Origin: Halomonas caseinilytica
GTDB lineage: Bacteria > Pseudomonadota > Gammaproteobacteria > Pseudomonadales > Halomonadaceae
Length of the DNA stretch: 64,000 nucleotides
NCBI RefSeq assembly: GCF_001662305.1
Contig: NZ_BDEP01000014.1
Coordinates: 1 to 64,000, forward strand
Reading direction: 5' to 3'
Shown: piece after piece, positions 35,881 to 37,950 of the stretch
Layout of the letters: every line of letters starts with the position of its first letter
Position numbering within the stretch: the first letter of the stretch is position 1
Made by a program: the position numbers and the translations under genes
Notes under the pieces: model-generated
Seen by the model: the letters and a program-made list of their open reading frames with translations, nothing else
Databases searched by the model: none
What the model was told of the DNA's origin: nothing

Positions 35881-35891
35881 CAATGAGGAGG
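35881..35891 (+). promoter_or_regulatory. Ribosome binding site complementary to the candidate small RNA
   Basis: CAATGAGGAGG, ending five bases before the permease ATG. It is an exact reverse complement of CCTCCTCATTG (36952-36962) in the unpaired segment of the candidate small RNA about 1 kb downstream. Eight of the eleven bases are common in ribosome binding sites, so the match is suggestive only. Confidence 0.45.
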
Positions 35892-35895
35892 TGTC

Positions 35896-36810
35896 ATGGA
35901 AGGCGTGGCGGGAGCCCTCGGGCCCCTCTTTCTGTTGATCCTGCTGGGCGCGTTGCTCGGCCGCCTCGACCAGCCGGGCGGCGATTTCTGGCCACGGATG
36001 GAGCGGCTGATCTATTTTCTGCTGTTCCCCGCCATGCTGGTCTCGACCCTGGCAGGTGCCGATATCCAGCAAGTCCCGGTGGGACGCCTGGCCCTGGCCC
36101 TGCTCGGTGCGATGGGCATGCTGGGGGGCGCGCTCTGGGCCGCGAACCATCGGCTGGGTCTGGCGGCCCCGGCCTTCACATCGGTGTTCCAGGGCTCGCT
36201 GCGTTTCAATACCTATGTCGGCGTGGCAGGTGCCGCGGCGCTGCATGGCGAGGCCGGTGCCACTGTCGCAGCAGTGGCCGTGGCCTTGATGGTACCGGTC
36301 GTGAACGTCCTGTGTGTCGCCAGTTTCATCGCCGCCGGCACACTCGGTACCGCCGGCATGCGCGCCAGCCTGGCCGCCCTGGCACGCAATCCCTTGATCC
36401 TGGCGTGCCTGCTGGGCATCGCCCTGAACCTCAGTGGTATCGGCCTGCCCGGCTGGAGCGCCCCCGCAACGGAGCTGCTCGGTCGGGCCGCCCTGCCGCT
36501 CGGCCTGGTGGCGGTAGGCGTCGCTCTGCGGCCACGAGCCCTGCTGCGCCTCGATCTCGGTGTCTGGGCGGCCAACCTGGCCAAGTTGATCCTGATGCCG
36601 GCCCTGGTTCTCGGTTTCGCCCTGTTGCTCCGGCTGGATCCGGTGAGTCGCGATATTGCGCTGCTGTTCGCCGCCTTGCCCACCGCCACTTCCGCTTACA
36701 TCCTGGCTCGTCAGCTCGGTGGCGATGCCGAGTTGATGGCCGCGCTGATCACCGGCCAGACCCTGATCGCCATGGCCTCGCTCCCCTTTTGGCTACGCTT
36801 GGTCGGCTGA
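35896..36810 (+). CDS. AEC-family (auxin efflux carrier) permease
   Basis: A 304-residue membrane protein with about ten helices in two inverted five-helix repeats. The family pattern is present: LIYFLLFPAMLVSTLAG near residue 38, FQGSLRFNTYVGVAG near 98, and the second-half motif LPTATSAYILARQLGGDAEL near 262. AEC members export or import small organic acids such as malate; the substrate is unknown here. A strong AGGAGG precedes the start. The candidate iron-regulated RNA lies directly downstream. Confidence 0.87.
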   Translation: MEGVAGALGPLFLLILLGALLGRLDQPGGDFWPRMERLIYFLLFPAMLVSTLAGADIQQVPVGRLALALLGAMGMLGGALWAANHRLGLAAPAFTSVFQGSLRFNTYVGVAGAAALHGEAGATVAAVAVALMVPVVNVLCVASFIAAGTLGTAGMRASLAALARNPLILACLLGIALNLSGIGLPGWSAPATELLGRAALPLGLVAVGVALRPRALLRLDLGVWAANLAKLILMPALVLGFALLLRLDPVSRDIALLFAALPTATSAYILARQLGGDAELMAALITGQTLIAMASLPFWLRLVG

Positions 36811-36854
36811 TAGGGCCCGTCCCCGAAACGTAATAAAAAAAATTCTCGTTTGCG

Positions 36855-36884
36855 TTGACAGATCAAATGAGAATGATTTACTCT
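36855..36884 (+). promoter_or_regulatory. Promoter with Fur-box-like operator for the candidate small RNA
   Basis: TTGACA (36855-36860, perfect -35) and TACTCT (36879-36884, moderate -10) lie 18 bases apart. Between them is AAATGAGAATGATTTAC. Aligned to the 19-base Fur consensus of Pseudomonas and E. coli it matches at 13 positions, including an unbroken AATGAGAAT. A Fur dimer here would block RNA polymerase, so transcription should rise when iron is scarce. Confidence 0.65.
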
Positions 36885-36890
36885 ACAAAC

Positions 36891-37010
36891 ATGGCGTTGA
36901 TGAGGCGCCATGCCGGGGCAAGGTTCCTGCCAGTTTCTTGCCCAGGTTTCTCCTCCTCATTGCTAGTCACGGTCTTTTGCCGCCCCGCCCAGGGCGGCTT
37001 TCTTTTGTTG
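36891..37010 (+). ncRNA. Candidate Fur-regulated small RNA of about 118 nt
   Basis: No credible coding frame fits this gap. From the predicted start near 36891 the transcript folds as hairpin 1 (ATGGCG 36891-36896 with CGCCAT 36906-36911), hairpin 2 (GGGCAAG 36916-36922 with CTTGCCC 36937-36943), an unpaired CU-rich linker (36944-36978) containing TTTCTCCTCCTCATTGCT, and an intrinsic terminator. The CTCC repeats can pair with Shine-Dalgarno sequences. CATTGCT also occurs in the targeting core of E. coli RyhB. Promoter, Fur-like site and terminator bracket it precisely, which is the layout of RyhB and PrrF. It could instead be an untranslated leader, but the next gene is on the other strand. 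Confidence 0.6.
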
Positions 37011-37011
37011 G
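36979..37011 (+). terminator. Strong intrinsic terminator of the candidate small RNA
   Basis: GCCGCCC (36979-36985) pairs with GGGCGGC (36992-36998) around a six-base loop and is followed at once by TTTCTTTTGTT. It lies 168 bases past the AEC permease stop and 55 bases before the end of the convergent LysR gene. Confidence 0.8.
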
Positions 37012-37065
37012 TTCGTCTCGTGGCGTTGGTTTGTCTCTCGGCTGCGCGTCGCTCGCCTCGCACCA

Positions 37066-37950
37066 TCATTCCCGCTGACCAAGCTGCCGTTTGACCAGTT
37101 CGCCCAGCGCCTCGACTGCCGGCCAGGACGCAGCGGAAACCTGCCGCCCATAGTGCAGTTGCGCCTCACAGCCACGCAGCACCGGCAACCCCTCCGCCGC
37201 ACCAAGCTCTCGCATGGCCGGCGTCAATCGGTCACGCTCGAGAATGCTCACCGCCAACCCCGACTCCACCGCCGTTTCCACCGCGTGGATGCTGGTGCTG
37301 GTGAAGACGGCGTGCCAGGGGCGATCCATCGCGCTCAATGCCTCGACTCCCAACTGCCGATAGGGGCAGTCCTCGGGGTGAAGCGCCAGTGGCAACGGTT
37401 GCTCCGGCGTCAGGACGAGTTCTCGCGCCCCGGCCCAGACTGGCGTGGAGCGCCACAACGGCTCGCCACCACTGAGCCGGTGAGGACGGTCGAGCGCCAC
37501 GATCATCGATAGCTCTCCCCGCTCCAGGCGACGTGCCAGCTCGCCGCTGGGCGCCGTCACCGCTTCCAGCACCACATCCGGATGCCGTGCCAGAAAGTCT
37601 GGCAACAGACGCCCCACCAGGCGACTGGCGTAGTCTTCCGGCATGCCGAAACGTACGCGGCCGCTCAACCCTCGCCCACTGATCCTGGCCACCAGGCCAT
37701 CGTGTCGACGCAACAGTTCCCGCGCCTCGCCCAGCAAGGCCTCGCCGCTGGGCGTCGGGCTCACCCCTCGCGCCCCCCGTATCAGCAAGGTGGTATCCAG
37801 CCGCGCCTCCAGGCGCTTGATCTGCATGCTCAGTGCGCTGACGGTGCGATGACGCTGCTCGGCCGCCGCGGCCAGCGTACCCAAGCGCACGACCGCCACG
37901 AAGCTGCGCAGCGCCTCGAGATCCAGCGAGTCCGAAATGCCTTCAGCCAT
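37066..37950 (-). CDS. LysR-family transcriptional regulator
   Basis: 294 residues from the ATG at 37950. Winged helix-turn-helix at about 8-67 (LRSFVAVVRLGTLAAAAEQ) and an effector-binding domain from about 95. The start gives the usual LysR length; 18 extra upstream codons are not family-like and would cover the operator. It diverges from an EamA exporter, and a perfect palindrome lies between them, so it very likely controls that exporter and itself. The effector is unknown. Confidence 0.87.
   Translation of the reverse strand: MAEGISDSLDLEALRSFVAVVRLGTLAAAAEQRHRTVSALSMQIKRLEARLDTTLLIRGARGVSPTPSGEALLGEARELLRRHDGLVARISGRGLSGRVRFGMPEDYASRLVGRLLPDFLARHPDVVLEAVTAPSGELARRLERGELSMIVALDRPHRLSGGEPLWRSTPVWAGARELVLTPEQPLPLALHPEDCPYRQLGVEALSAMDRPWHAVFTSTSIHAVETAVESGLAVSILERDRLTPAMRELGAAEGLPVLRGCEAQLHYGRQVSAASWPAVEALGELVKRQLGQRE

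Follow-up and report, generated by a model that had tools for sequence, protein, structure and literature searches.

The window analyzed here is a stretch of 64,000 nucleotides (nt) from Halomonas caseinilytica (positions 1 to 64,000 of contig NZ_BDEP01000014.1, assembly GCF_001662305.1). At 36837–37008 on its forward strand lies a PrrF-like RNA locus with a TTGACA promoter, Fur-like boxes, two hairpins, a 24-nt core and a terminator. The upstream neighbor is an AEC-type permease gene, whose best NCBIfam match is the auxin efflux carrier TIGR00946 (55 bits). The downstream neighbor is a convergent LysR-type regulator gene, whose best match is LrhA (121.9 bits). Both matches are below the cut-offs. 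The element is unannotated, and judging from its conservation, it is real and functional. It very probably encodes a trans-acting small RNA that spares iron, is repressed by Fur and is a diverged homologue of Pseudomonas PrrF. The features of the locus are the following.

36837..36851, − strand: upstream Fur-like box AAACGAGAATTTTTT, oriented as a mirror image of the main box; one of the nine matches to AAATGAGAATNATTT in the genome at up to 2 mismatches
36855..36860, + strand: −35 element TTGACA, from the sequence; TTGAC is kept in 36 of 38 aligned copies by script
36865..36879, + strand: main Fur-like box AAATGAGAATGATTT, between −35 and −10; the sole exact match to AAATGAGAATNATTT in the own genome
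36879..36884, + strand: probable −10 element TACTCT after a spacer of 18 nt, from position and alignment
36888..37008, + strand: small RNA of about 118–121 nt with a predicted 5' end; matched by the covariance model R1 at 36888–37012 and, promoter included, by the PrrF model at 36855–37007
36890..36912, + strand: hairpin 1 with the loop TTGATGAGG; 7 pairs, covarying
36913..36946, + strand: hairpin 2 with GCCAGT towards its tip, from segment-wise folding against shuffles
36950..36973, + strand: 24-nt core CTCCTCCTCATTGCTAGTCACGGT, the proposed target-pairing region, from conservation and complementarity to the sdhC start, the acnA start and sodB leaders
36979..37007, + strand: intrinsic terminator, a 7-bp G+C stem (36979–36998) and a T-run (TTTCTTTTG), from a terminator scan

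An initial annotation, made from the letters of the window alone, had described a perfect −35, two hairpins, a CU-rich linker and a stem-loop with a T-run. All these parts are found: TTGACA at 36855–36860, the hairpins at 36890–36912 and 36913–36946, the C/U-rich stretch TCTCCTCCTCATTGCT at 36949–36964, and the stem-loop at 36979–36998. The mirror box AAACGAGAATTTTTT at 36837–36851 had been overlooked. The count of 13 out of 19 Fur-consensus positions is reproduced at 36866–36884 against AATGATAATCATTATCATT, compared by eye, and falls to 12 out of 19 in the register GATAATGATAATCATTATC. The annotation also reported no coding frame. This is supported, if short of proof: a mechanically called open reading frame (ORF) of 79 aa starting with TTG spans 36855–37094, and the relatives, with insertions or deletions of 1–2 nt at several places in the alignment, speak for the noncoding nature of the element.

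The initial annotation had proposed BLASTN and covariance searches in relatives. BLASTN with 36840–37015 finds the element in 35 of 37 genomes of the same genus, the own genome included; the two negative genomes are 79% and 85% complete. The nearest copies in the genus are 96% identical. Among 21 other genomes of the order, only a 29-nt piece is seen, in one genome. The covariance model R1 was built from 40 copies, including the copy in the window. With E-values that are rough, R1 reaches E ≤ 0.01 in 148 of the 151 genomes from this family, representing 23 of 24 genera. In two genera, g119 and g120, the matches are weak, with E-values from 2e-5 to 9e-3, and chance may account for some of them. 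In the own genome, only the locus in the window is convincing (127.9 bits; the next best is 20.1 bits). The exact core plus one base is present in 18 stretches, including those from H. elongata 153B, H. eurihalina, H. smyrnensis, H. maura and H. halmophila, in a listing that may omit the genome of the window or very near records.

The conservation is concentrated in the element. The alignment contains 38 copies from 35 genomes of the same genus. From a set of 17 stretches, ten are left out of the alignments: L031–L033 as duplicates, L035 and L036 because they are incomplete copies, and L038, L039, L045, L046 and L047 because the script found no core match in them. L034 and L037 are outside the 38-row alignment and inside the 40-row alignment A1, the source of R1. 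Over 29 relatives, the mean identity to the window is 95% in the core (60% when shuffled), 72% in hairpin 2 (57% when shuffled), and 58% in the 60 nt past the terminator (57% when shuffled). Of 35 Halomonas loci, 34 have the AEC gene next to the RNA and 21 have the LysR gene there. The initial annotation had considered the contrary case, where linker and terminator are lost beside conserved flanking genes; the opposite is seen, as the highly conserved core accompanies the conserved AEC gene.

The predicted structure is also conserved. In hairpin 1, six of the seven pairs show changes on both sides, and 93.6% of the cells pair. The covariation score is 0.451, against 0.176 (sd 0.019) for shuffles, which ignore relatedness; none of the 500 shuffles reaches it, and slid versions of the hairpin score 0.151 at most. 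RNAalifold on the whole alignment recovers hairpin 1 only, probably because the lengths of hairpin 2 and the terminator vary and they are misaligned; hence these were folded one by one. For hairpin 2, 29 of 38 segments fold so well that 5 or fewer of 100 shuffles are as good. The nine others are six segments shortened by script and counted as failures (L006, L010, L012, L014, L022 and L026), L013, L019, and the window's own segment (6 of 100). A G+C stem-loop followed by T-rich sequence is present in 37 of 38 rows; the remaining row, L043, is a wrong stretch, and its terminator is visible in the alignment. Terminator-like sites in 36500–37300 number three, against 0.7 expected, and two of them are the same stem, 36979–36998.

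The PrrF model of Rfam, RF00444, is aligned with the element over positions 1–150 of 150, at 36855–37007, including both promoter and terminator. The score is 35.4 bits, with an E-value of 1.2e-4 for 255 bases against all families. The next best family (E 0.05) is on the other strand, and the RyhB family is absent from the six Rfam matches at E ≤ 10 for the element. The initial annotation held that the element was not alignable by eye to RyhB or PrrF beyond CATTGCT. For PrrF this did not hold, and the alignability is a second point it had overlooked. Because the alignment extends from end to end, we conclude from the sequence that the Halomonas element is a diverged homologue of PrrF, not an unrelated counterpart. 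Since the gathering cut-off of 90 bits is not reached, it is called a homologue here and is not counted as a formal RF00444 member.

In 293 genomes of the order, RF00444 matches at E ≤ 0.01 are found in 50 genomes of 12 families, where about three genomes are expected by chance. Only 12 of the 293 genomes, all from family f21, presumably the Pseudomonas family, pass the cut-off. The 14 control genomes show no match to RF00444. Because 38 of the 50 matching genomes score below the cut-off, the data suggest that the PrrF family is much wider than the database cut-off admits. Six genomes from other genera of the window's family have copies with 51–65 bits. One of these other-genus loci, L073, has an adjoining AEC gene with 73% identity, and its core ATCTCCTCATCAAGCTAGTCACGGTC is intermediate between the Pseudomonas-type ATCTCCTCATCAGGCTAATCACGGTT and the Halomonas TTCTCCTCCTCATTGCTAGTCACGGTC. 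We conclude from these sequences that the locus is common at least to Halomonas and L073. L073 is the only one of 30 PrrF-type loci, all from other genera or families, at which an adjoining AEC gene was found.

Some PrrF-type matches are arranged in tandem. G294:C3:1547549-1548839 (the L068 region), from another family, contains five tandem matches about 280–300 bp apart. Four are seen in a row about 180 bp apart in G449, which belongs to the window's family, and G396 contains at least three, about 1.34 kb apart.

The promoter region was compared with the iron regulon of the same genome. The E. coli-type 19-bp Fur consensus GATAATGATAATCATTATC has no site in the 64-kb window at up to 3 mismatches, so it was replaced by the genome's own motif, AAATGAGAATNATTT. 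At up to 2 mismatches, AAATGAGAATNATTT is found at nine sites in the own genome and its reversed pattern at five; therefore, the number of motifs alone says little. Their positions are more informative. Two are at the RNA locus, and six of the remaining seven are found in front of iron genes or in the space between two of them. These comprise two sites separating a FecE-like ABC gene from an IucA/IucC siderophore synthetase gene, a site between the genes for a TonB receptor and a periplasmic binding protein of the iron type, a site between an fhuC-like gene and sodA, and single sites ahead of a FoxA-like receptor gene and of a SUF regulator gene that sufB follows. Several of the gene names come from best hits that score under the NCBIfam cut-offs. 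The seventh is near a spore-coat-U-domain gene. Because close variants mark siderophore, TonB, fhuC/sodA and suf genes, AAATGAGAATNATTT is probably the Fur box of this genome. The genome contains two Fur-family genes (152 bits and 60 bits) and one Hfq gene.

Both boxes are conserved among the aligned Halomonas copies. The upstream mirror box, in a loose TTC-type form, is present in 38 of 38, and an AAYGAGAA-like core of the main box in 37 of 38, being absent from L010a. Of the two exceptions at the −35, L027a has TTGAC just beyond the scanned range and L011a has TTTAA. By eye, most rows keep TTAC or TTACT at the −10 position. The second paralogues, L034:467-586 (G025) and L037:519-638 (G021), keep the upstream mirror box and have a different sequence in the −35/−10 spacer at the position of the main box. 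From this sequence difference, these paralogues are possibly regulated differently.

The complement of the core is ACCGTGACTAGCAATGAGGAGGAG. The start of sdhC, GCC-GTG-AAT-AGC-AAA, contains CCGTGAATAGCAA, which is complementary to the core at 12 of 13 nt. CCGTGAATAGCAA at this start is identical in 24 of 24 Halomonas genomes. With up to one mismatch, CCGTGACTAGCAA is found at three sites in 3.57 Mb: the RNA gene, the sdhC start in sense orientation, and the inside of another ORF. Complementarity as good as that of sdhC is reached by 1 of 1000 shuffled cores and by 1 of 131 window starts. For acnA, TAGCAATGAG over the ATG is complementary at 10 of 10 nt and is preceded by CCGTGAC; here, an equally good match is reached with 5 of 1000 shuffled cores and at 2 of 131 window starts. 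acnB (L161) is outside this comparison, as its start is beyond the fetched sequence. A covariation of sdhC codon 4 with the core between families was considered and dropped, as G037 does not show it.

The sodB leaders were compared in 19 genomes, corresponding to 19 of 20 fetched loci (L165 has no SodB-pattern start). Their mean complementarity is 8.39, against about 5.6 for shuffled cores, with 0/500 and 1/500 as good in two runs; in G021, CCATGACTAGCAACGAGGAG precedes sodB. Because the core holds an anti-Shine-Dalgarno stretch, the comparison was repeated with CATTGCTAGTCACGGT alone. The sodB leaders give a z of 3.1 (6/500). The controls give −0.7 (385/500) for sodA and 0.3 (194/500) for window genes; the former are 10 leaders found by pattern among loci L087–L116, two of them identical, and the latter are the 18 of 52 genes with a Shine-Dalgarno-like start. 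The complementarity supports sdhC and sodB as candidate pairing targets, and it is suggestive for acnA. For leuC, it is weak, with 55 of 1000 shuffled cores and 8 of 131 window starts as good. Complementarity without gaps, compared with shuffled cores and control genes, was adopted after a test of duplex energy, and both are to be weighed. In duplex energy over 4262 windows, acnA (rank 94) and leuC (rank 26) are better placed than sdhC and sodB.

Other sites of core complementarity are seen at gene starts. One non-self site of TAGCAATGAGGAGG, at G000:C28:2849-2862 (L201), marks the beginning of a catalase gene (PF00199, 629.5 bits), and another that of an MksE-like gene (PF21980, 41 bits). Just ahead of the catalase start, CAGCAATCAGGAGG is complementary to the core at 12 of 14 nt; as the gene was chosen by the TAGCAATGAGGAGG search, its later score in the comparison with shuffled cores is no independent test. 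In the window, CAATGAGGAGG at 35881–35891 is a perfect 11-nt complement of the core, precedes the ATG of the AEC gene and includes its ribosome-binding site. The AEC mRNA was rejected as a general target. AEC starts were found by script in 17 of 32 loci tried; CAATGAGGAGG is seen in the window and AAATGAGGAGG in L003, and such a site is absent from the other 15, one of which keeps CGACGAGGAGG.

From these observations, the following function can be proposed. When iron is plentiful, Fur would occupy the boxes around the −35 and block the promoter. When iron is scarce, the promoter would be freed, and the RNA would be transcribed up to the terminator. Its C/U-rich core (36950–36973) would then pair, presumably on Hfq, with mRNAs of iron enzymes in their ribosome-binding or start regions. 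The sites would be the GTG start of sdhC, the leader of sodB, and probably the ATG of acnA. leuC and the heme catalase could be further targets. Such pairing would block translation, repress the targets and lower the demand for iron. The initial annotation had taken the element for the Halomonas counterpart of the RyhB/PrrF-type RNAs, and the conservation, the genes adjoining Fur-like motifs and the PrrF alignment agree with it.

Several results weigh against this interpretation. The −10 element TACTCT is weak, with three of six consensus positions, and because of this, a simple consensus scan of 36500–37300 finds no sigma-70 promoter. The L010 copy (G023) retains the upstream box and has lost the main box in the spacer. 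In Rfam, the 35.4 bits of the element are below the 90 bits of RF00444, and the whole window has no match at the gathering threshold. A search of the own genome with RF00444 under stricter filters finds no match, and among the genomes listed, only one of the same genus, G006 (35.6 bits), has an RF00444 match. In the ensemble prediction for the window RNA, the mean unpaired probability of the core is 0.26 over 21 nt. The core is less than half unpaired in 23 of 40 copies, the window included, and 0.50–0.81 in the other 17.

The evidence for the targets also has weak points. The reversed pattern of CCGTGACTAGCAA is found at seven sites, against three for the forward pattern, and TAGCAATGAGGAGG at up to 2 mismatches is found genome-wide at 12 sites, against 9 for the reversed pattern, which is no real excess. 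The sdhC start sequence GTGAATAGCAAA is also present in G043, from another family and without an RF00444 match; therefore, conservation of the sdhC start need not stem from pairing. With the full core, sodA, which encodes the manganese superoxide dismutase and is an expected non-target, reaches a z of 3.7 over the 10 leaders (1 of 1000 shuffles in the own genome). This is due to the Shine-Dalgarno sequence, and thus Shine-Dalgarno matches alone are no proof of a target. In the own genome, sodB is modest, with a score of 7.6 reached by 53 of 1000 shuffled cores and 9 of 131 window starts. The duplex energy over the 4262 windows does not single out sdhC (rank 1619) or sodB (rank 581).

Three other explanations of the locus can be compared with the PrrF-homologue reading. 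The negative promoter scan and the fold energy of the RNA, only moderately better than shuffles (z −2.35, 3 of 200 as good), would fit a chance or non-functional stretch that merely resembles promoters and hairpins. Such a stretch would hardly be found in 148 of 151 genomes with a covarying stem and a core at 95% identity next to a downstream flank at the shuffled level, and this explanation has next to no credibility. The conserved stretch might instead be the 3' untranslated region or terminator of the AEC permease gene, perhaps processed to a small RNA, with no free-standing gene. The AEC gene is a conserved neighbor on the same strand, and its stop codon at 36810 precedes the −35 by about 45 nt and the predicted start by about 78 nt. 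However, the element has its own conserved −35 and Fur boxes, and an AEC gene is beside only one of the 30 PrrF-type loci from other genera and families (L073), which makes this explanation very unlikely.

The remaining explanation is that a Fur-repressed RNA of the RyhB/PrrF regulatory type originated independently in Halomonas and resembles PrrF by convergence. The sub-threshold RF00444 score and the core, which differs from the Pseudomonas type by one insertion and several substitutions, are compatible with it. Against convergence stand the alignment from promoter to terminator, the common motif CTARTCACGGT, and intermediates that occur in further genera of the family as well as outside the family, one of which adjoins the same AEC gene. 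An independent origin is thus improbable, if slightly less so than a 3' untranslated region, and the element is best regarded as a diverged homologue of PrrF.

The strongly conserved loop of hairpin 1, TTGATGAGG, is complementary to CCTCATT, a part of the core. In the predicted ensemble, the occlusion of the core is mostly pairing with the loop side of hairpin 1. This core-occluding fold is either a misprediction or a real switch, and it is conceivable on the model that the loop and the core form a self-inhibiting switch. It can be speculated further that PrrF is the ancestral iron-sparing RNA of the whole order, overlooked as the curated cut-off admits one family. In this lineage, the Halomonas core could have been re-tuned onto the sdhC start codon, with a paired Fur operator in the promoter, a hairpin 1 loop closing on the core as a self-inhibiting switch, and, in some lineages, tandem arrays of up to five copies. 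This combination as a whole is doubtful.

The kind of RNA is already known. PrrF RNAs occur as siblings in almost every sequenced Pseudomonas species and stand in tandem in P. aeruginosa; they have no sequence homology to RyhB (PMC4211561). Genes affected by PrrF include sdhCDAB, acnA and acnB, and ArrF of Azotobacter and NrrF of Neisseria are termed PrrF homologs (PMC2851614). An engineered PrrF1 scaffold has been used with P. aeruginosa Hfq in Halomonas bluephagenesis (PMC12164125, PMC13414033), and transplantation of a PrrF1 scaffold into Halomonas is also described in PMC13101641. The available text of PMC12164125 and PMC13414033 contains no mention of a native Halomonas PrrF, and no description of the Halomonas branch, or of a wider PrrF, was found in the open-licence literature searched. 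The element offers industrially used halophiles a candidate RNA for sparing iron. A Pseudomonas PrrF1 scaffold is already imported into such hosts for repression (PMC12164125, PMC13414033), and it could meet a native relative there. The interest lies in the breadth of the PrrF family and in the direct testability of the targets, and no new principle is involved.

Among the known systems, RyhB of enterobacteria and vibrios is likewise repressed by iron and lowers iron-cofactored superoxide dismutase and succinate dehydrogenase (PMC4211561), whereas it has no Rfam-level sequence homology with the Halomonas element. BrrF of Burkholderia is also a low-iron RNA, and sdhC and sodB are among its computationally predicted targets (PMC7377471); its sequence comparison with the Halomonas element is limited to Rfam. 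The scaffold used in H. bluephagenesis belongs to the same RNA family and is used in a Halomonas, but it is a transplanted Pseudomonas tool (PMC12164125, PMC13414033). Halomonas differs from PrrF1 and PrrF2 of Pseudomonas in the core (CTCCTCCTCATTGCTAGTCACGGT, against the Pseudomonas-type CTCCTCATCAGGCTAATCACGGT, with one insertion and several substitutions), in hairpin 1, and in the mirror-image second Fur-like box upstream of the −35. The order of parts is the same: a Fur-box promoter, two hairpins, a C/U-rich core with TCACGGT, and a terminator. The motif CTARTCACGGT is common to both, copies are single, accompanied by a distant second copy, or tandem (for the Pseudomonas side, PMC4211561), and the probable targets of both are sdh, acn and sodB.
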